This document shows, in pieces, positions 48,501 through 64,000 of a stretch of 64,000 nucleotides of DNA; position 1 is the first letter of the stretch, and the number at the start of each line of letters is the position of its first letter. Both the position numbers and the translations under genes were made by a program. This DNA is from an uncultured Acidobacteriota bacterium. GTDB taxonomy: Bacteria > Acidobacteriota > Terriglobia > Terriglobales > Acidobacteriaceae. The DNA is taken from positions 1-64,000 of the forward strand of contig CAINND010000094.1 of assembly GCA_903851035.1 (NCBI GenBank), in the 5' to 3' direction. The notes beneath the pieces were generated by a model. The model saw only the letters and a list, made by a program, of their open reading frames with translations. It had not been told where the DNA came from and did not search any database.

Positions 48501-50435
<1,935 letters not shown>

Positions 50436-50473: not shown

Positions 50474-50902
50474 ATGGAAACGACTGAGCAGATCAAGAAG
50501 ACGAATGCGGCAGAGCAGAAGACGCTGGCACCGAACATGGTGCGGCTGACTTTTTTGCCCAGCAATGAGAGCGTGGAGTTCGAGGCAGGAAAGCTGCCCT
50601 ACCAGGAGCACGGCAAGCAGGGATCGATCCTGGATGTGGCGATCAACAGCGGGATTCACCTGGAGCATGCCTGCGGTGGAAACTGTGCCTGCACAACGTG
50701 CCACGTGGTGGTGAAAAAAGGACGCGAGCTGCTGAACGAGGTGAGCGAAGAAGAAGCCGACCGTCTGGATACGGCCGCGGATCTGCAACTGCACTCGCGG
50801 CTGGGCTGCATGGCGGTGATTGAAAAGCCGGGCGAAGTGGTGGTGGAGATTCCCAGCTGGAATAGAAATTATGTGCGCGAAGGCGGCGGCAGTACGTTGT
50901 AA
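50474..50902 (+). CDS. fdx: [2Fe-2S] ferredoxin of the ISC system
   Basis: 142 aa. Adrenodoxin-type ligands are in HACGGNCACTTCHVVV (C-x5-C-x2-C) with a fourth Cys in SRLGCMAVIEK. The sequence VMEIPSWN-like VVEIPSWNRNYVREG ends the fold as in Isc Fdx. It supplies electrons for cluster assembly on IscU. An N-terminal extension of about 30 residues precedes the domain. Confidence 0.95.
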   Translation: METTEQIKKTNAAEQKTLAPNMVRLTFLPSNESVEFEAGKLPYQEHGKQGSILDVAINSGIHLEHACGGNCACTTCHVVVKKGRELLNEVSEEEADRLDTAADLQLHSRLGCMAVIEKPGEVVVEIPSWNRNYVREGGGSTL

Positions 50903-50952
50903 ACTCTTTGGCTGCGGGCTGGGCTCGGTAAGGCCTGCCCGGGAGTGGACGC

Positions 50953-51168
50953 ATGCTTGAGCTATCGTGGGATGACGCAGGCGATATCGGCATTGAGTTG
51001 TACGAGAAGTTTCCGGCCAAGGATCCGCTGACCGTGCGCTTTACGGAACTGCGTCTGATGGTGGTGGAGCTGAAGGGTTTCACCGACGATCCGCAGGCAT
51101 CAAGCGAAGGCAAGCTGGAGGCGATCCAGATGGCCTGGTACGAGGAATGGAAAGACAATCAGGAGTAA
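50953..51168 (+). CDS. iscX: IscX (YfhJ) family protein
   Basis: 71 aa. The family pattern is clear: LSWDDAGDIGIELYEKFPAK at the start, DPLTVRFTELRLMVVELKGF in the middle, and LEAIQMAWYEEWKD at the end. The acidic protein binds IscS and iron and tunes the rate of cluster assembly. It is the last gene of the operon. The defence island begins directly after it. Confidence 0.94.
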   Translation: MLELSWDDAGDIGIELYEKFPAKDPLTVRFTELRLMVVELKGFTDDPQASSEGKLEAIQMAWYEEWKDNQE

Positions 51169-51210
51169 ATAGTAAATATATCAACGACATATGAATGGTT
51201 ATCGATATTG

Positions 51211-51227
51211 TGTACAAAATTTGTACA
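51211..51227. promoter_or_regulatory. Near-perfect palindrome upstream of the integrase
   Basis: TGTACAAA-A-TTTGTACA is an 8-bp inverted repeat with a one-base centre, 42 bp before the integrase start. It could be an operator or the core of an attachment site. Confidence 0.5.
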
Positions 51228-51268
51228 TACCATGATATCCTGTTTTCTATCAATAGTTTGGAGACAGG

Positions 51269-52666
51269 ATGAACAGGGAAACGCTGCTGAAGAATCAATG
51301 GGGAAGCGTTAATCCCTACACTCGCCACATATCTGACTGCTCCCAAACAGCAAACACAAATTTCAATTCCTGCCGATGTCCGAAGTGGCTTTATGTCAAT
51401 AAACGCGGCGAAAAACCCACTCGCTATGCACTGAACACCAACTCCTGGTCCGAAGCAAAGGAACTGGCGGCTGAAGCGCTACGGGTATTCGATCCTGAAA
51501 TTGCCGAGGCACGCGAGACCAAGCAGAGGAAGAAGCGCGCTTCGCGTACAGTGCTTGAGGCCATCAATCTCTGGCTGGATCGCACGCGTACAGCCTATGG
51601 CGAAGACTCGACCATCGTTAAGCAATACAAGAGCACATTCGGATGGGTAGACGGGGACGGCGTTACTCATGGCTCTCTTCTCCAATTTATTGAAAACTGG
51701 AATCTGAGTCATCCCGAAGAACGAATTGAAGCGATCAATGAGATAACGACCCTGATCTGCCAGGAGTGGCTCTCCTCTAAATGGTTCAGTAAATTGAGTT
51801 CGGTAACCCGAAATCAGCGATGGGGAACTGTGCGTTCGTTCTTCAATTTTCTGGTTGGGGTGGATGTGATTGAGCGTAGCCCTGTGGCGTCCATCAAGGC
51901 TCCGCCGGCAAACAACATTTATGCCAATGCTCCATTTACGCCTGAACAGTACAAGCTGATCCTGGAGCAGGCGGACTGGTATGTAGATGATCGAGTGCGG
52001 AATGGCGAACGCGAAGTGTACTGCACGCGTCTGCACAATTTCATCGAAGTCCTCCGGCACACCGGCATGGACATCATCGACGCGGTACAGCTTCGGCCGG
52101 CATTACAGATCACATATGAGCTGGTAGACGACGATTTGGTTCCCGTGTTGAGGTACATGCGTACTAAAACCGGAGTCGAAGCTGTCATACCCTTAACCCC
52201 GCAACTTGCAGAGAAAATCAGGGCGACACCTGCGGTCCCGCAGTCGGCGCCCGGGATGCCATTTCGCTATGTGGAGACACTCATACGCTCAGATGCACAT
52301 AATTGGGCACGCAGAGTTAAAGTACTGTTTCCACTTGCCAGCGTGGATGCAATCCAGCTCATGGGCAAAGATGGACGTCCTGCAGTTGACAGCTATGGCG
52401 CGCCAATTATGAAACGGCCCAACGTCAAGATGCTTCGTCATACTTTTGCAGTGGGAAGCCTGTCTGCTGGAATACGCGAGGAGACTGTTGCAAAAATGTT
52501 AGGCCATAAGTCTGTCGAGATGGTGCGTGAACATTACGGACCCTGGTGCAAGCAGAGAGATGAGGCACATATTCGTGAAGTATTTACGGTGATGAAGCCG
52601 GTGAATGCACCAGCAGCTCCCAATTCAAAATCAACGCGCAAACGCCAGCCAAGACTCACGCAGTAA
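51269..52666 (+). CDS. Tyrosine recombinase/phage integrase family protein, possibly impaired
   Basis: 465 aa. An N-terminal Cys/His segment (HISDCSQTANTNFNSCRCPKW) precedes a SAM-like core-binding domain (about 95-215). The catalytic domain (about 230-430) has (H/K)-x-x-R as K387-M-L-R390-H, H413 in MLGHKS and the nucleophile Y423 in EHYGPW. The position of the first catalytic arginine, normally T-G-L-R, is T-G-M-D268. This would disable strand cleavage unless another residue serves. It may be a decayed integrase or a binding-only relative. A terminator follows at 52687. Confidence 0.85.
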   Translation: MNRETLLKNQWGSVNPYTRHISDCSQTANTNFNSCRCPKWLYVNKRGEKPTRYALNTNSWSEAKELAAEALRVFDPEIAEARETKQRKKRASRTVLEAINLWLDRTRTAYGEDSTIVKQYKSTFGWVDGDGVTHGSLLQFIENWNLSHPEERIEAINEITTLICQEWLSSKWFSKLSSVTRNQRWGTVRSFFNFLVGVDVIERSPVASIKAPPANNIYANAPFTPEQYKLILEQADWYVDDRVRNGEREVYCTRLHNFIEVLRHTGMDIIDAVQLRPALQITYELVDDDLVPVLRYMRTKTGVEAVIPLTPQLAEKIRATPAVPQSAPGMPFRYVETLIRSDAHNWARRVKVLFPLASVDAIQLMGKDGRPAVDSYGAPIMKRPNVKMLRHTFAVGSLSAGIREETVAKMLGHKSVEMVREHYGPWCKQRDEAHIREVFTVMKPVNAPAAPNSKSTRKRQPRLTQ

Positions 52667-54682: not shown

Positions 54683-57600
54683 ATGGCTCTCGACAACGAC
54701 CTCGTAGTCGATCTCCTCACATACATTGAGCAAGTCGAAAAGCTCAAGGTCAAACCCGCATTCTCCGTTCCGACTGAGTACTTTGCCGCCTACCAGCACG
54801 AGCTTAAGGGCCTTCCAGAAATCCGGTTCAACATCCAGGCGGATGGCGAGGACGTGTGGCTCTGTATCCCGCGACTCAAGGAGATACAGGCCCCCTCGCC
54901 CGATGAGAAACTTGCCCCTTGGATCACGATCTACAGGACGCCGACGAGAACGCCAGAGTTGAGACCCGCGATTGAGACACCTGCGAGCCCGGAAACTCCA
55001 GATCGCACCGAGATCCGTGAACTCTTCGATTGGTACATCAAGAACCAGTGGATGCCTTGGGCGGCAGCGGAACTGCCACGCCGCAAGACGATTCACCGCT
55101 ACAACCAGGTCTTCGCCATCCAACAAGCGATCGCAAGCGGTGGTGCTGACATGCCCCTCGAGCTGGTCTGGGGCATCGGCATGGCTCTCTGGAATAAGGA
55201 AGGCAATGCAAGCACGCTCAAGTACCCTCTGATTACGCAAGGCTGCGAAATCAACCTAAATCGCCACACATTCGATCTGGAAATCAGACCCCGCAACGTC
55301 GATGCCCGCATCGAATTGGACTGTTACGCCGAGATGGAAGTGTCCGGCGTGACGCAGGTGGAAGCGTTCTGGAAAAGCGCCATCGACAGCGCCACGAATC
55401 GGGTCAATCCGTTTGAATTCTCGACGTTTGAACCAACACTCAAAACTGCCGTAGGTTTTCTCGACCCCTCCGGCTCCTATGAGGTCCTCGCCGAAGACCC
55501 AACCCTGCCAGCACCATCGGACAAGCTCAAGATCATGAGCACATGGGTCCTGTTCGCCCGTAAGCGAACGGCCACGATCTTCCTCGAAGACGTGAAACGC
55601 TTAAGAGAGAAAGTGAAAGAGGCCCGCTCCCTTCCGCCTGTGATCCGCAGTTTTGTAGTGCGTGGCGACGAGGAGGTGCGAACCCGAACTGAGCGCGTCT
55701 TCCGCGGCCTGTTATCAAGCGAAGCTCCCTCCGATGCTGCGGAACTCTACTTCCCTCTCCCCTACAACGATGAACAGGTTTCTATCGTTCAAAAGCTCGA
55801 GCATGGTGATGGCATCGTTGTGCAGGGCCCACCGGGTACCGGCAAGACGCACACGATCGCGAACATAATCTGTCATTACCTGGCAGCAGGCAAACGCGTA
55901 TTGGTCTCCTCGAAGGGAGAGACTGCGCTTACCGAGGTGATTGGCAAGCTGCCGGAGCGGATTCGCCCGCTTGCGGTAGGCCTTCTATCGAACGAACGTG
56001 AAGGAATGAAGCAGTTTGAGCATTCAATCCAGACAATTGCGTCAACCGTGACGGCACTTAATCCTCAGCGTTCCGCTAGGGAGATCAACCGGCTCGAAGA
56101 TCAGGTCAATCGCCTTCATTCGAAAATTTCGCAGATCGATTCTTCGCTAAGAGCACATGCCACGAAGCACATGTGCTCTTACAAGTTCCAAGGACGGGAA
56201 TCCACCCCCGAAGAGATTGCGAAGTACGTCGTTGAGCACGAGGAAGCGCACAACTGGATGGACGATGCGCTTCCGGCCAATGGTATGGAACATCTCCAGT
56301 TTGATGAGCGCTCAATTGGCGCGCTGCGCCAAGCGCGGCTGAGGGTGGGCAAGGACATCATCTACCTAGATTCCTCTCTGCCAATTAGCGATGATTTTCC
56401 TGCTTGGCCCTACCTCCTCAGTCTGCATCGCGACCTGATAAAGGCCAAGGACCTTGATGCGCGAGTCTCCGACGGGACCATTCTGGACTTAATTGATTCA
56501 ACACCCGGGACCTACGAGAAGGCCGTGGCGCTGCTTAGATTCTTAACAGAGCGGACAGATCTGCAGAAGCGGGTCGCCTCATATCCTACAGTCGGCCTGA
56601 ACGTTCTGCGCGAGCATCTGGCCAAGATGAAGCCAGACGATATCTTGCTCGACTCCCTCGTGCAGGTCTGCCGCGACATCAATTTGCTCGACTGCACCAG
56701 GCGTGATCTTGTCCCGAAATCCATCGTCCTCCCTACAGGCGCCGAAGACGATGATGATTTCCTTTCGGCTATCGTGCGCCTCAAGCAGGGCAAAAGCGCC
56801 TTCGCTTTTCCATTCGGAAAGTCGGCAGCCCGCAAGCTAGTAGAGGGTGTAGCGGTTCTCGGGTCCTCTCCGGAAGGTGCGGAGCAGTGGGAAGATGCCT
56901 ACGCCATGATTTCCTGGCGCATGTCTGTTAAGAAGTGTCTCGCGCGGTGGAACTCAGTCGCCAGAGAGTTCGGGTTTGAGCCCCGGACGGGCGAACTCGA
57001 AGACGTATTCCGTGGGGCCGCCCAGCTTCAGGCCCAGGTCATGGAACTGCACAGTCTCGTGTTCGACTACGACGCAAAGCTGGTCGCCGAAACCCAGAAG
57101 GTATTCGGAGAGCGCGTTGCCGCTCGATTTAAGAGCGAAGGCGAGAAACTTGTGCAGGAGGTCATCACCTGCCTGCAGTTCCATATTGACCGGGGTAATC
57201 TTGCATCCACGCTCTTCCGGATCGAGACCATTCGTCAGAAGCTAATTGGCCGGAAGGGGCCGATCGTAGACGAGGTTCGCGAGTTCTTCACGTCCTCGCT
57301 CGGCAACAAGCAAGAAGACGATTTAAGGTTGCAGACGAAGTGGCATGCGCTGGTATCAGAACTAATCCGCCTGGGTAGCATTCGTCCGGACCTCGACCAG
57401 ATTGCCCTCATCTCAGCCGAGATCGAAAGGTCCAGTGCTCTGCATTGGGCCGCACGCATTCGAACGCAAGCCGCTGAAGTCGACCACGACCCGGTTGTGC
57501 CTTCCGACTGGAGAGAAGCCATCGAATGGCGCTGTGCGGTCGCGCTCCTGGATTCGATTGACATTCACCATCTACTTAGGAATCTCTCCGATGAACGCCG

Positions 57601-59176
57601 AACGCACACGAGCTCTCTCGCCCACAAGTATCAGGAACTCGTGGCCGAAAAGTGCTGGCTAAACGTTTTCAACAATTCGCCAGATTCAGTGCAGCAGGAT
57701 CTCAAACGGTACCTAAATGCCATTCAAGCGATGGGGACCGGGCTTGGCTTGCGCGCGATGCGCTATAGGAAAGACGCACAGGAAGCTATGACTCGCGCTT
57801 ATCGCGCAGTTCCTTGCTGGGTCTTGCCCCAGTGGCGCGTCAGCGAGACTATCCCATCCGAGGTCGGGCTCTTCGACCTCGTCATCATTGATGAGGCGTC
57901 CCAGTCGGACATATGGGCGCTTCCCGTTCTTCTTCGGGGTAAGAAGCTCTTAATTGTAGGAGACCGCAAGCAGGTGTCTCCATCTGCGATCGGAATGGCT
58001 GAACAGAGGATCACGGACCTGATCAGCCGCTTCCTGCAGAATCAGCCTTTCGGGTCCGAGATGACTCCCGAAAAGTCAATATACGACCTAGCCAGCGTCA
58101 TATTCGCCTCAAACGCTGTCATGCTGAAGGAACACTTCCGCTGTGTTCCGGCAATTATTGAGTTTTCGAATCGTGAGTTCTATCAAAATGATATTGTTCC
58201 GCTGCGCATACCTCATCCAAGCGAACGGCTTGATCCGCCACTCATTGATGTGTATGTAAGAGGCGGATTCCGGAAGGGAGACGTTAACGACCCCGAGGCG
58301 CAGGCCATCTTGCAGGAGATTCAGGCGATTCTCGCAAATCCTTCCCTTGGCGGCCGCACCATCGGCGTGGTCACACTTCTCGGAACGGATCAGTCTGCCT
58401 ACATCCACAAACTAGTCACCACACACATCTCGCCATTGGATATCTTGAATCGGCAAATTTCAGTAGGCCCGCCGCCCATATTTCAGGGCCGAGAACGAGA
58501 CATCATGCTCATCTCCATGGTCCTCGCACCGGGCGACCATTCCGCTCAGAATCGAGATGATCAGAAACAACGCTTCAACGTGGCCCTCTCGCGCGCAAGA
58601 GACAGGGAGTATCTCTTCCGTTCCGTGGATTACAGTGCTTTTGCCGACGACACTCTCAATGGTCGGCTGATCCGGCATTTCCGGGAACCTTTCCGGCAGA
58701 ACGCTCGCACTTCCAATGTGCTCCGTGAACGCTGCGAGTCTGATTTCGAACGAGACATGTTTGATGCGCTGGTAAAGAGGGGCTATCGCGTCGAACCGCA
58801 AGTGCGCTGCGGTGGTTTCAGAATAGATCTAGTAGTTGAGGGAAGGGAAGGTCGGCGGATTGCCGTAGAGTGCGATGGAGACCGATTTCATGGTCCTGGC
58901 CAATGGGCCGAGGATATGTCACGTCAGCGCGTCCTCGAGCGCGCCGGTTGGACCTTCTGGCGCTGTTTCGCTTCCAACTTTTTGCGCCGGCGTGCCGCAG
59001 TCCTTGAAGACCTCTTCGCCACCATAGGGAACCTTGGAATCGAGCCACTCGGCTCGGATGGGGTAGACAATACCGCGTGGGTCCATTCTAAGGAGGTTGA
59101 TCCCTACGCCGTCCAACTGGAAGAGGAAGCGGAGGAGGAAGAGGAAGACTATGGCGAAGCGGCCGTTCATCAGTAA
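54683..59176 (+). CDS. SF1 (Upf1/Dna2-like) helicase with C-terminal Vsr/MTES_1575-type nuclease domain
   Basis: 1,497 aa. Residues 1-330 match no domain I recognise. Helicase domain: Walker A QGPPGTGKTHTIANII (about 380), a long helical insertion (about 450-980), Walker B LVIIDEASQSDIW (D at about 1070), GDRKQVSPSAIG, EHFRCVPAIIEFSN, and the C-terminal motif RFNVALSRARDREYLF (about 1300). A PD-(D/E)XK fold of the DUF559/Vsr/MTES_1575 type follows: ESDFERDMFDALVKRGYRVE, D1382 in FRIDLVV and E1396-x-D1398 in AVECDGDRFHGP. The tail is acidic (EEEAEEEEED). Helicase-plus-Vsr-like chains are known phage-defence components. It overlaps the next gene by 26 bp. Confidence 0.88.
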   Translation: MALDNDLVVDLLTYIEQVEKLKVKPAFSVPTEYFAAYQHELKGLPEIRFNIQADGEDVWLCIPRLKEIQAPSPDEKLAPWITIYRTPTRTPELRPAIETPASPETPDRTEIRELFDWYIKNQWMPWAAAELPRRKTIHRYNQVFAIQQAIASGGADMPLELVWGIGMALWNKEGNASTLKYPLITQGCEINLNRHTFDLEIRPRNVDARIELDCYAEMEVSGVTQVEAFWKSAIDSATNRVNPFEFSTFEPTLKTAVGFLDPSGSYEVLAEDPTLPAPSDKLKIMSTWVLFARKRTATIFLEDVKRLREKVKEARSLPPVIRSFVVRGDEEVRTRTERVFRGLLSSEAPSDAAELYFPLPYNDEQVSIVQKLEHGDGIVVQGPPGTGKTHTIANIICHYLAAGKRVLVSSKGETALTEVIGKLPERIRPLAVGLLSNEREGMKQFEHSIQTIASTVTALNPQRSAREINRLEDQVNRLHSKISQIDSSLRAHATKHMCSYKFQGRESTPEEIAKYVVEHEEAHNWMDDALPANGMEHLQFDERSIGALRQARLRVGKDIIYLDSSLPISDDFPAWPYLLSLHRDLIKAKDLDARVSDGTILDLIDSTPGTYEKAVALLRFLTERTDLQKRVASYPTVGLNVLREHLAKMKPDDILLDSLVQVCRDINLLDCTRRDLVPKSIVLPTGAEDDDDFLSAIVRLKQGKSAFAFPFGKSAARKLVEGVAVLGSSPEGAEQWEDAYAMISWRMSVKKCLARWNSVAREFGFEPRTGELEDVFRGAAQLQAQVMELHSLVFDYDAKLVAETQKVFGERVAARFKSEGEKLVQEVITCLQFHIDRGNLASTLFRIETIRQKLIGRKGPIVDEVREFFTSSLGNKQEDDLRLQTKWHALVSELIRLGSIRPDLDQIALISAEIERSSALHWAARIRTQAAEVDHDPVVPSDWREAIEWRCAVALLDSIDIHHLLRNLSDERRTHTSSLAHKYQELVAEKCWLNVFNNSPDSVQQDLKRYLNAIQAMGTGLGLRAMRYRKDAQEAMTRAYRAVPCWVLPQWRVSETIPSEVGLFDLVIIDEASQSDIWALPVLLRGKKLLIVGDRKQVSPSAIGMAEQRITDLISRFLQNQPFGSEMTPEKSIYDLASVIFASNAVMLKEHFRCVPAIIEFSNREFYQNDIVPLRIPHPSERLDPPLIDVYVRGGFRKGDVNDPEAQAILQEIQAILANPSLGGRTIGVVTLLGTDQSAYIHKLVTTHISPLDILNRQISVGPPPIFQGRERDIMLISMVLAPGDHSAQNRDDQKQRFNVALSRARDREYLFRSVDYSAFADDTLNGRLIRHFREPFRQNARTSNVLRERCESDFERDMFDALVKRGYRVEPQVRCGGFRIDLVVEGREGRRIAVECDGDRFHGPGQWAEDMSRQRVLERAGWTFWRCFASNFLRRRAAVLEDLFATIGNLGIEPLGSDGVDNTAWVHSKEVDPYAVQLEEEAEEEEEDYGEAAVHQ

Positions 59177-59825
59177 GCTAGTCGACGAAATGGAAGTGAT
59201 GTTCAAGTCATCGGGGATGGAACTTCTGACACTTAAGGCGCTTGAGAATGAACTCGTTCACCGCTCAACGCCTCGGGCAGTCAGCCTGCTCAAGGTTGTA
59301 CGAAAGCAGCTATCACTACCGCAGTTCAGCGACAGTGCGATGGATCCTTCTCTCTTCGGCCCACCGTCCATTCCCACCAGTTTGGTCAATCCAACTCCGC
59401 CGCAACGAGCAGATTCCACACCTGAATTGGCACCGAAGCCTCACCAAGCGCCTCAACCTGTGTCGGTGAACCAACCTATGATATTTCCGTCTCCGCTGGT
59501 TTCTGGTGGCGAGCCCTTACCTTTATCTGCCCTCGTAGAACTTAGACACGAAGTTGGCAACTCGATTATGTCCCCCGAAGAGGCAAGTAAGGTGCTTCAA
59601 GTCACCTTAGGAGCGGCTTGGGAGACAATTGAGAAATCCCGCCGCGGGATCGTCCAGAAATCACATCCCGACAATATCCGATCACTCTCCCCAGAAAGGC
59701 GAAGAGTGCTAGTCGAACATGCGCGCCGGGCGAACGAGGCGGTCCAGGTTCTGTCGGGCTTGCGAGTCCCAAGAGAGACCCATGTCAGCAAGTTGCATGA
59801 AAACGCCGAGCCTGCACGAGAGTGA
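59151..59825 (+). CDS. J-domain-like protein coupled to the helicase gene
   Basis: 224 aa from ATG 59151, inside the end of the helicase gene, with a long purine-rich ribosome site (GGAGGAGGAAGAGG). The first 60 residues are a helical region (FISKLVDEMEVMFKSSGMEL), and a Pro-rich linker follows (about 65-110). The C-terminal part (about 135-205) resembles a J domain: SRRGIVQKSHPDNIRSLSP with HPD at 172-174, then ARRANEAVQVL. A J-like protein could recruit Hsp70 or bind the helicase. No matching defence family was recognised. Confidence 0.7.
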   Translation: MAKRPFISKLVDEMEVMFKSSGMELLTLKALENELVHRSTPRAVSLLKVVRKQLSLPQFSDSAMDPSLFGPPSIPTSLVNPTPPQRADSTPELAPKPHQAPQPVSVNQPMIFPSPLVSGGEPLPLSALVELRHEVGNSIMSPEEASKVLQVTLGAAWETIEKSRRGIVQKSHPDNIRSLSPERRRVLVEHARRANEAVQVLSGLRVPRETHVSKLHENAEPARE

Positions 59826-59896
59826 TTTCTGCTTCCCACAACCGAGTGTAGCCACCCGATACACCACAATTGCCGCCTATGGTACAGCGTTAAACG

Positions 59897-61306
59897 ATGA
59901 CGAACGAACACGATCGACTGGATTCTCGATTCAGCATTGTCAGCGCCTTTTGGAAGCCGCAAATACCCCAGCACGTCCTCACAGGCACGCTGACAAATGA
60001 CGACGATGGGCTGACATTCACCACATCTCCGCGCTATAGCTACCGTGTTCGCGTGGACTCGCTTGCTTCACTGATGAGGCTGTCTGAAGGCGATGCGGTT
60101 CCTCGAATACAGGTGATGCACGGATTCTCCGCGGATGGCATTTGCACCCTGTGTCAACTCATAGAGATTGCGCATCCCGGCCTCAATGACACAGCTTCAG
60201 GCCACTGGATCGAAGCAAACTCCTATCGTGCATCGGTTTTTGTTGGTGGAATCCATTTAGGCGGCATAGATGACAGATCCCTCACGTCCGCACATTTCAC
60301 CTTCACCGGAATTGGTGAGTGGCTCCCAGGGCCACTGAATGAGGTCTGGGAGACCGATCATATTGTGCTGAAGATTCCCCTGACCGAAAAGGAGGTGTTC
60401 AGCCTTGGCGTTCGCGAGACGCATGTGCATGTCAGTCTGAAGGTCATATCGGAGATCAAGTCCAATGGAGACGATGGAGGCCGCGTCACGCGCCCGGTCG
60501 CATTCATAGAGATCAAGAGCTACGAGCCGGAATCTTTGAATTGGTACCTTGCCATCGGCAATCGCATAGAGAACATCTTTTCTTTACTGCTCGGGGCTTC
60601 GCTCGCGATGGAGACAATGTTCGTTTTTAGAGGTGATGAGGTGGGCCACGTCGTCAGTAAACGCAAACGCGTGGTTGAGAAAGTGGGAGTATTCGATTGT
60701 GTGCGTTGCACAACGAGCCAACTCGCTCAGGCAATCGCTATATGGCTCAGTCAACCTGATGAGTTTAGCTTGGTCGAAAGCCTCGCTCTCGGCGTACTCC
60801 GTAAGGGAGACCTATTCTATGAAACGGAACTGTTGTCTTTGGCACAAGCGCTGGAAGGGTTCCATCGAGTGACCTCTGAAGCGATACCGGTAGATAAAGC
60901 AACGCTCCGAAGGATTAGAAAATCGTATGCTGCCCTGTTGCGGCAGGAAGGGGTCGAAGAAGCACTGGCATCGCGTTTGTGCTCCGCTATGGCTCACGCT
61001 AATGATCCAACATTCGCTGCGCGCCTAACGGACCTCTGTAGTCGCCTGTCAGACATTGCGTTGCATAATATGGGCATCGAGCCAGCAAGCTTTATCCCTC
61101 AGGTTGTGGCGACAAGAAACTATTACACTCACGCGGGAAACAAGATTTCCTCTCACTGGCGAGCCCTTCCTTTATCGGGAGTACCTATATTCTTTCTAAA
61201 TCAGAAGCTTCGAGCATTACTTCGAGGGGTTCTTCTCTTGCATATTGGATTGCCGGAGCAACAGATCACTGCATTAATAACGCGTGAGGCTACACGATGG
61301 AGATAG
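59897..61306 (+). CDS. ApeA-like HEPN domain protein, candidate defence RNase
   Basis: 469 aa. The first 230 residues are beta-rich (FSIVSAFWKP, LTFTTSPRYSYRVRVDSLAS, GHWIEANSYRASVFVGGIHL), in the manner of the ApeA N-terminal domain. The C-terminal half is helical and contains RNYYTH (R407-x4-H412), the HEPN active-site motif, in VATRNYYTHAGNK. ApeA-type HEPN proteins protect against phage by abortive infection through RNA cleavage. It lies 71 bp after the J-like gene on the same strand. No clear ribosome site precedes the ATG. Confidence 0.82.
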   Translation: MTNEHDRLDSRFSIVSAFWKPQIPQHVLTGTLTNDDDGLTFTTSPRYSYRVRVDSLASLMRLSEGDAVPRIQVMHGFSADGICTLCQLIEIAHPGLNDTASGHWIEANSYRASVFVGGIHLGGIDDRSLTSAHFTFTGIGEWLPGPLNEVWETDHIVLKIPLTEKEVFSLGVRETHVHVSLKVISEIKSNGDDGGRVTRPVAFIEIKSYEPESLNWYLAIGNRIENIFSLLLGASLAMETMFVFRGDEVGHVVSKRKRVVEKVGVFDCVRCTTSQLAQAIAIWLSQPDEFSLVESLALGVLRKGDLFYETELLSLAQALEGFHRVTSEAIPVDKATLRRIRKSYAALLRQEGVEEALASRLCSAMAHANDPTFAARLTDLCSRLSDIALHNMGIEPASFIPQVVATRNYYTHAGNKISSHWRALPLSGVPIFFLNQKLRALLRGVLLLHIGLPEQQITALITREATRWR

Positions 61307-61696: not shown

Positions 61697-62947
61697 CTAT
61701 TTTACCGGCATCAAGAATCGCTCGACTGGACGAGATTGAAGGCAGAGCACGTCATCTTCGGACACGAGCTTCTCGTCAACTCCCCTCATGATCACATAGG
61801 GCTCAAACAACGAGTCACTAAACCGAAAGCGATATCGCCGCCTCTCACCTCTGCTTTCAAGAACTGCACCTCGCCCCTCGCTGCAGAACTGTTTGAGATG
61901 GCGCATATAAGCATCAATGCCGTATTTTTTCTTTTTTATTGCAAGAAGAGGAGCGCGAAGATCCCCAGCTGTGAAATACCCAAGCTCGTCAGTTGGACAA
62001 AGTGCCGCAGCAAGAAGAATTTCCTTATAAATGTTTGGATGCGGACTGCTTATTGCCTTGAGGTATGAAGAAACAAGCGTTTGACGCGCACTCTTTAATG
62101 AACGACGAATGGCTGATTCGACATCGGCGCAGACAGCAATCAGTCTTCCATCGTCCAGGGCTGCGTGACCAGTAAACATTCCTAATTCATGAGCATTATG
62201 TGGAAGCCCACGAGATAAAGCCGCAATCTGAACAACAGCGTCCTTATCGATGCTCAACTTCGCATGCAGAAATCCCCTTTCAACAATCTCTGCAAGCTCC
62301 GATTCCAACATTCTAGGCACCTGAATCTGTACGAGTGCCCTTTCAATGGATGCATGTTCAGCTATCAGTTCGTCTATTGAATCAGCCACGCCCACGATAA
62401 TCAGGGTTGCGTCGACAGCATGGTCGGAGAGGCTCTTGATGGTATCGGCAAAAAGGGTAGCAGTTGATGGATCTTCGATTCTATCGAACTCGTCGATAAT
62501 TATGATTGCAGGTGAACCAAGCTGTTTGAGGAGAAAGCGCACATCCTCCGCTGTTCCGTCTTCCGGAAATGACACCTTGGACCGAACGGCGGCAGTCAAG
62601 TTTTCACCTGTATCGCCAGAGTGCAGATTCCTAAGGAAGAAAAGCTCTCGAAACACTCCCTGCCAAATCGTCACAAAATTTGCTGTAGCGTCGCAGTTCA
62701 GGCGAACCACCTGATAATTCCATTTTTCTAAAGACCGCAAGGAATCATTCAAGAGATTTGCGAGAGACGTCTTCCCGACGCCTCTCTCTCCGTAGATCAG
62801 CACATGCTGTCCGAGCTGAAAAACAGCATCCATAAGGCGGGTTTTCTCTTCTGCTCTACCGGAAAAAAATTCTCCCCTAGCTGGCGACGTTGGCGTGAAT
62901 CCCTCTGACAGCCGCCCCCTAAGCTCAATTTTCTCTATATCTTCCAT
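61697..62947 (-). CDS. Orc1/Cdc6-like AAA ATPase
   Basis: 416 aa from ATG 62947 (MEDIEKIELRGRL). An N-terminal FSGRAEEKTRLMDAVFQLGQ box leads into Walker A GERGVGKTSLANLL (53-60), Walker B IIIIDEFDRIED (D152-E153) and a sensor-1-like ATLIIVGVADS. The C-terminal third (about 285-400) looks like a winged-helix region (AALCPTDELGYFTAGDLRAP, RRRYRFRFSDSLFEPYVIMR). Similar ATPases are found in defence islands and as DNA-bound switches. It diverges from the CD-NTase gene, so it may regulate or assist it. Start 62977 is also possible. Confidence 0.8.
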   Translation of the reverse strand: MEDIEKIELRGRLSEGFTPTSPARGEFFSGRAEEKTRLMDAVFQLGQHVLIYGERGVGKTSLANLLNDSLRSLEKWNYQVVRLNCDATANFVTIWQGVFRELFFLRNLHSGDTGENLTAAVRSKVSFPEDGTAEDVRFLLKQLGSPAIIIIDEFDRIEDPSTATLFADTIKSLSDHAVDATLIIVGVADSIDELIAEHASIERALVQIQVPRMLESELAEIVERGFLHAKLSIDKDAVVQIAALSRGLPHNAHELGMFTGHAALDDGRLIAVCADVESAIRRSLKSARQTLVSSYLKAISSPHPNIYKEILLAAALCPTDELGYFTAGDLRAPLLAIKKKKYGIDAYMRHLKQFCSEGRGAVLESRGERRRYRFRFSDSLFEPYVIMRGVDEKLVSEDDVLCLQSRPVERFLMPVK

Positions 62948-63188
62948 ATGTGCCACCAGATAAAGCATACCGCACAATATGTGGCCACATCAGTTTATTA
63001 TTTGAAATAATCAGTCAATTCTAGTCGTTATATAAACAATTGATATTGACAATAAGTCAATAAAACGACAGAATCAGCTGTAATTATCTGCTCAGAACCA
63101 AGAATTCTGGGCAATCGGACTCAACTGCGAAGCAGGGTTGATGTCCAGAGTGCCTCACTGGGCTGCTTCATATGAGAGGAGATCCACG
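62948..63188. promoter_or_regulatory. AT-rich divergent promoter region with palindromes
   Basis: ATGTGGCCACAT (62979-62990) is a perfect 12-bp palindrome, and TTGAC-AATAA-GTCAA (63046-63060) is a second inverted repeat. GAGAGGAG (63175-63182) is the ribosome site of the CD-NTase gene. Shared control of the AAA and CD-NTase genes is inferred. Confidence 0.5.
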
Positions 63189-64000
63189 ATGGCAGCAGTT
63201 CCAGTCGCACATAACAGAATCATCGAAGCGATCATGGAGACAATAGAGATTCCGGATTCCGCTTACGATACAGCCGAAGCTCGTTACAAAGACATCGGTA
63301 ACTGGTTTGGCCGACAGGACTCCAACTGCGGTCGATTTGAGCCCCACATTCTGCCCCAAGGCTCGTTTCGCCTGGGAACGGTAAATCGACCATTGGACGA
63401 AAATACCGCCTACGATCTCGACCTGAGCTGCAAACTCGAAAACGGCATCACGAAACAGACATTTACGCAGGAACAGCTGAAGGTCCTGGTGGGTGTTGAT
63501 GTCGAAAGCTATCGAAACGCGCGCGGAATCAGCGAGCCGACACGAGAAAAACACCGTTGCTGGAGGTTGATCTACGCTGATCAACTTAGCTTTCACATGG
63601 ATATCGTGCCCTGTATACCTGAGGAAACAACCGCAAGAAAGACCGTCGAAGAGGCAATGCTTAAAGCCGGCGCCGATCGGATACTTTCCCAACGAGTCGC
63701 GAACCTGGCCGTCTCAATCACCGATAACCGGCACCCCAGCTATCGCCAAATCAGTCCTATTTGGAAACTCAGTAATCCTGAGGGTTATGCTCAATGGTTT
63801 GAAACGAGAATGAAGCTCGCAGCTGGACTGCTCGAAAAACGTGCGGCGGACGCTCGGCTCGCGCAGATCGACGAGTTGCCTGTGTTCCGTTGGAAGACCC
63901 CATTGCAGCGCTGTGTTCAGCTCCTAAAGCGCCACCGCGACCTCATGTTTCAGACGAACTCCGACGTTCATCCAATCTCAATAATCATAACAACGCTAGC
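63189..64000 (+). CDS. CD-NTase (cGAS/DncV-like nucleotidyltransferase), 5' part, runs off the right edge
   Basis: At least 270 codons, open to the edge. The nucleotidyltransferase signature is clear: LPQGSFRLGTVNRPL with G58-S59, D76-x-D78 in AYDLDLSCKL and the third acid D138 in LSFHMDIVPC. An ISPIWKLSNPEGYAQWFE segment and a helical C-terminal part follow (LQRCVQLLKRHRDLMFQ). These are features of CBASS CD-NTases, which make cyclic oligonucleotides on phage infection and trigger an effector. The effector and any accessory genes would lie to the right. Confidence 0.9.
   Translation, partial: MAAVPVAHNRIIEAIMETIEIPDSAYDTAEARYKDIGNWFGRQDSNCGRFEPHILPQGSFRLGTVNRPLDENTAYDLDLSCKLENGITKQTFTQEQLKVLVGVDVESYRNARGISEPTREKHRCWRLIYADQLSFHMDIVPCIPEETTARKTVEEAMLKAGADRILSQRVANLAVSITDNRHPSYRQISPIWKLSNPEGYAQWFETRMKLAAGLLEKRAADARLAQIDELPVFRWKTPLQRCVQLLKRHRDLMFQTNSDVHPISIIITTL

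Follow-up and report, generated by a model that had tools for sequence, protein, structure and literature searches.

UPF1-like helicases act on DNA or RNA, and chains that join a helicase to a nuclease are common in bacterial immunity, where the trigger of such chains is mostly unknown. Among the closest described systems are CoCoNuTs and MTES_1575. In CoCoNuTs of types II and III-A the helicase CnuH occurs with the wHTH-HEPN protein CnuE, and in type III-B CnuH is a UPF1-like helicase fused to Vsr (PMC11090510). MTES_1575 of Microbacterium testaceum carries HEPN, SF1 helicase and Vsr parts in a single chain (PMC3710099). The window, by which we mean the whole 64,000-nucleotide stretch of DNA analysed here, holds three successive plus-strand genes: HEL (54683..59176), whose 1,497-residue product is, by Pfam and sequence matches, a UPF1-like SF1 helicase with a C-terminal MTES_1575/Vsr-like nuclease; J (59151..59825), which overlaps HEL by 26 bp and encodes a 224-residue partner annotated from homologues, a predicted model and a fold search; and HEPN (59897..61306), which follows J after a 71-bp gap and encodes 469 residues of the ApeA type by Pfam. 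Full-length homology shows all three to be real genes, and purifying selection acts on J in relatives. An earlier reading made from the letters alone (the sequence-only reading) had the ORFs, strand, overlap and gap exactly right, and had gone on to propose that the three genes form one defence system. Scans of the 71-bp gap between J and HEPN found no promoter-like or terminator-like site, with promoter matches close to the shuffled expectation and terminator matches below it, and Rfam returned zero matches.

Pfam places the SF1 core of HEL in AAA_11 (residues 361–495) and AAA_12 (residues 1142–1307) and an MTES_1575 REase domain at residues 1355–1448 (PF18741, E 1e-30), in line with the SF1 helicase ending in a Vsr/MTES_1575-like nuclease that had been named beforehand. 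Its motifs comprise Walker A K388, a DE pair at 1070–1071 and the nuclease residues D1382, E1396 and D1398; the helicase and nuclease catalytic residues, among them the D1382 and E1396 singled out by the sequence-only reading, are invariant in 75 of the 75 HELs compared. An insertion of ∼600 residues lies behind Walker A. Sequence matches among solved structures put the core closest to UPF1/NAM7, SEN1, SMUBP2 and DNA2. Residues 1–378 were modelled with a mean pLDDT of 85, and comparison of this model with the PDB gave no significant match; Aquarius and Sen1 aligned weakly (Z no higher than 3.7), a hint of a UPF1-type stalk/barrel region in the predicted structure.

Scanning genome contigs with an alignment of HELs returned 79 loci, around which J partners were located by profile search, with two duplicates removed. 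The sequence-only reading had suggested looking for the genes side by side in other genomes, and for HEL and J this association is borne out: J lies immediately 3′ of HEL, in the window as in 20 further loci, all within one HEL clade, and every J partner found has this position. In most of the other loci the two genes overlap by 4 nt or lie a few bases apart. Because L086 and L092 are contigs of one assembly, the 20 loci stand for 19 genomes or records. Full-length J occurs in 4 of 397 genomes of the order (the window and three others, each beside HEL), and a further full-length relative sits beside HEL on a Variovorax plasmid. The J profile, run across the whole phylum, found the window's J as its only full-length match; its three hits in other genomes were partial, spanning the J-domain half and leaving out the N-terminal domain. 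Phage records and viral contigs contained no J; viral contigs contained no HEL relatives, and phage records two distant partial HEL matches.

In a quick tree of HEL, which carries a long-branch warning on some distant joins, the 19 full-length HELs with a J partner, counting that of the window, fall into one clade of 21 (SH-aLRT 99). The remaining members, L025 and L038, are without J and represent two losses, L025 being the nearest relative of the window's HEL at 65% identity. Some 45 HELs at ∼35–38% identity are also without J, as is every HEL more distant than the J clade apart from the L044 fusion described below, and a search for hidden J domains in the C-terminal tails of J-less HELs gave no match. 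J is therefore dispensable for some HELs, as L025 and these ∼45 J-less HELs indicate. The J-bearing clade spans Acidobacteriota, Nitrospirota and Beta/Gammaproteobacteria, and a single clade across phyla fits transfer of the HEL–J pair as a unit. No conserved third gene lies downstream of J among the neighbours of the 20 HEL–J loci. At the other end of the pair, in four loci (L017:7241-7498, L026:638-886, L029:9636-9983 and L039:9744-9983), a small ribbon-helix-helix-like gene, possibly a regulator, overlaps the HEL start by 4 nt; it is absent from the window.

The HEPN protein matches HEPN_Apea (PF18739, 2e-22, 80.7 bits, above the cut-off of 24.4) and ApeA_NTD1 (PF18862, 2e-16, 60.8 bits, above the cut-off of 25.5), and the R-x4-H motif that the sequence-only reading had recognised is present as R407-N-Y-Y-T-H412 and conserved among its relatives. 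It shares both domains and the motif with the HEPN anti-phage protein ApeA, from which nothing notable sets it apart, and looks like an ordinary member. No ApeA gene lay in the flanks fetched around the 20 other HEL–J loci. Three of these flanks say little, because J is no more than 130 bases from the end of L018 and L030 and no more than about 1.5 kb from the end of L086, and the whole-genome search covers them: PF18739 was found in 0 of the 19 HEL–J genomes or records by a search that detected 4 of 4 known-positive genomes. In the reverse direction, a HEPN protein search of the order found nine other genomes, and HEL and J were absent from the stretches fetched around these ApeA-like loci. 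Since ApeA is missing from HEL–J loci and genomes, and HEL and J from the surroundings of the nine ApeA-like loci, the outcome is the one that the sequence-only reading had itself named as refuting its proposal, and the three-gene linkage, searched in both directions, was rejected for want of co-occurrence. We judge from these distributions that HEPN is not part of the HEL–J module and that it most likely stands on its own in this island, as a defence protein of a known single-gene type. The first reading is corrected accordingly on this point: neighbours in a defence island need not form one system. One HEL without J (L070) has a remote HEPN match ∼9 kb away, a proximity that defence islands can produce.

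The J partner consists of a three-helix N-terminal domain (residues 1–60), a variable linker (61–139) and a J-like domain (140–206). Its AlphaFold model is confident in two places, the N-terminal domain, whose helices lie within residues 11–55, and the J domain (140–205), with a pLDDT of ∼98; the linker is of low confidence. J domains fill the top ranks of the fold search, with those of HscB, CbpA and DnaJ among the best. For residues 140–205 the Foldseek probability is 1.00 with E-values of 0.1 and up, and the top Z is that to 6rzy_A (VIA Z 8.4, rmsd 2.7 over 66 residues); the Z and E-values are modest for such a small domain, but the matches are consistently to J domains. Against Pfam DnaJ (PF00226) the window's J reaches E 0.07 and 13.7 bits, below the cut-off of 27.8, and 15 of 20 family members match, the best at 5e-5. 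A J-domain fold is predicted on this basis. The HPD-containing J-like C-terminus described by the sequence-only reading holds for the window, where HPD occupies residues 172–174 of the predicted J fold, but not as a family trait: HPD is intact in only 5 of the 21 J partners (the window, L018, L026, L039 and L033) and degenerate in the other 16 (HPS, HPA, HPE, HPV, RPD, QPD, SPA, SPV, SPI or NPE), often by loss of D, so that P is its sole invariant residue. Given this degeneracy, we use ‘J-like’ for the fold only. The linker of one partner with intact HPD (L033:4748-5341) bears a CxC...CxxC zinc-ribbon-like motif.

In a single case, from Luteimonas colneyensis (L044:9677-14548), a divergent HEL carries the J N-terminal domain (∼60 residues; E 3e-11) as a fusion at its own N-terminus and has no J domain; the N-terminal domain of J is therefore probably the docking part. 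Nonsynonymous change is several-fold faster in J than in HEL in three of four close pairs, at comparable dS (dN of 0.197 versus 0.025 for L026/L029, 0.130 versus 0.022 for L028/L036 and 0.156 versus 0.021 for L028/L080), while the L092/L086 pair shows no faster change in J. Variability is highest in the linker, and both end domains are conserved. A conserved small partner of one HEL clade that evolves this fast is a direct candidate for the sensor or regulator of these enzymes.

To the left of these genes, two genes named from sequence, one hscA-like for an Hsp70 (48501-50435) and one ferredoxin-like (50474-50902), are directly followed by a tyrosine integrase found by Pfam (51269-52666), the apparent left boundary of an island. 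The GC content drops from about 0.63 to 0.49–0.56, and no repeats of at least 14 bases occur within 50850-51300 itself. In another locus a large protein that clusters with the window's hscA-like Hsp70 lies ∼1 kb downstream of HEL–J (L035:8989-11478), where J is without HPD. To the right, a minus-strand AAA_16/nSTAND-type ATPase found by Pfam (61697-62977) separates HEPN from a DncV-like CD-NTase that runs from 63138 to the window end at 64000; past the window end, L126:3139-6013 continues from the CD-NTase with an ORF without a Pfam match and then a patatin-like phospholipase. By gene content, the CD-NTase, the middle ORF and the phospholipase as effector are a CBASS locus, and it looks as though HEL–J, the ApeA-type HEPN and CBASS share one island. 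Elsewhere, the neighbours of HEL–J include Wadjet, type I RM, Qat, PrrC, AbiLi, Lamassu, Gabija, DISARM-type and SAVED proteins, a list of presence and not of enrichment, as well as integrases. Upstream of one HEL–J pair lie Double-GTPase 1 and GAP1-N1 genes of a GTPase-centred conflict system (L019:422-3396).

The best explanation, to which we give a probability of roughly 0.6, is that HEL–J is an anti-invader two-gene helicase–nuclease module with a docked J-like adaptor, beside an unrelated ApeA and CBASS. Such a defence role is favoured by the defence and integrase neighbours, by a patchy occurrence in several phyla and by the nuclease family. HEL would bind foreign nucleic acid and translocate along it, the substrate probably being DNA that is partly single-stranded; having loaded on and unwound the invading molecule, it would cut with its C-terminal Vsr-like nuclease. 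CoCoNuTs have been proposed to couple a nuclease to a helicase in broadly this way (PMC11090510). J would dock on HEL by its three-helix N-terminal domain, and the J-like domain, held on a flexible linker, would serve as a protein-binding adaptor or sensor that regulates HEL. We infer docking, anti-invader role, DNA substrate and regulation by the J-like domain alike. HEL–J is a real, conserved and apparently undescribed two-gene module; a literature search, with subscription papers outside its reach, did not find a helicase and J-domain defence system. The further idea of a new immune module, in which a UPF1-like helicase–Vsr chain is controlled by a J-derived adaptor or infection sensor mostly uncoupled from Hsp70, is tentative, and we put it at slightly under even odds. 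A J-fold protein, usually without HPD, acting as sensor or regulator would put a chaperone domain to unusual use.

Alternatively, J could be a genuine co-chaperone of Hsp70, recruiting DnaK or HscA so that HEL is assembled, activated or held in check. The retained HPD of the window's J, its high-confidence J fold and the presence of HscB, CbpA and DnaJ J domains among its best matches would suit this role, but we consider it unlikely: the fold is there, yet the window's J misses the Pfam DnaJ cut-off and HPD is not conserved in the family, being lost in 16 of 21 members and often at D. Moreover, HSP70 (PF00012) occurs in only 1 of 89 neighbour proteins scanned, and the hscA-like gene of the window sits ahead of the integrase, outside the island. 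The UPF1/SEN1/DNA2-type core of HEL would also suit a DNA-repair or RNA-surveillance factor, with no defence module involved. The very patchy spread (4 of 397 genomes of the order with full-length J), the presence of HEL–J across phyla, its island context and the description of HEL's fused nuclease family in conflict systems (PMC3710099) speak against this, and we regard it as more doubtful still. A three-gene system in which the helicase senses, J transmits and the ApeA HEPN cleaves RNA is suggested by the common strand and the 71-bp gap, and CoCoNuTs do pair a UPF1-like helicase with a HEPN effector (PMC11090510). However, the failing co-occurrence (ApeA in 0/20 fetched flanks and 0/19 genomes or records, HEL or J at 0/9 HEPN loci) and the intact nuclease already within HEL make it highly improbable.

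Compared with catalogued defence proteins, HEL has its best PADLOC match in PDC-S37 (2e-63, 212.7 bits, from a model that gives no curated cut-off), which is also the best match for all five related HELs tested, with or without J; the best stretch covers residues 898–1480, the C-terminal ∼600 residues. PDC-S37, a helicase–nuclease candidate for phage defence, is a one-protein model, its name suggesting a single-gene candidate, and unlike HEL–J it comes without a J partner. The anti-phage proteins Hhe (NF042953) and ProA (NF058533) match the SF1 core and nuclease of HEL over about 400–1,100 residues, at NCBIfam scores of 158.8 and 240 bits that are far below the curated cut-offs of 2000 and 1500, respectively. 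DUF4011, a criterion for Hhe, had no match in HEL by Pfam at E up to 1, and a literature search on ProA found no paper.

For the partner, the nearest parallel in role is offered by Tim16/Pam16, a degenerate J-like protein without HPD that acts as an adaptor. The Tim14–Tim16 structure 2guz_A is among the fold matches of J (Z 7.0), and the J fold and loss of HPD are common to both, although Tim16/Pam16 belongs to the mitochondrial import motor and, unlike HEL–J, has no helicase. For the helicase, CoCoNuT CnuH and HEL are both UPF1-like SF1 enzymes with a large insertion after Walker A and with a fused Vsr or a downstream accessory gene, but that gene is J-like beside HEL and wHTH-HEPN in CoCoNuTs. 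The McrB-like CnuB of CoCoNuTs was not seen as a conserved HEL–J neighbour in a neighbour scan without a CnuB-specific profile; the window genes that flank HEL–J are HEPN, the opposite-strand AAA_16/nSTAND ATPase and the CD-NTase. MTES_1575 is the prototype of HEL's nuclease domain and has an SF1 helicase in the same chain too, but unlike HEL–J it carries an in-chain SWT1/Abi2-type HEPN together with transglutaminase and wHTH domains, and no J is reported for it. The HEPNs joined to helicases in CoCoNuT and MTES_1575 are of other types than the ApeA HEPN.
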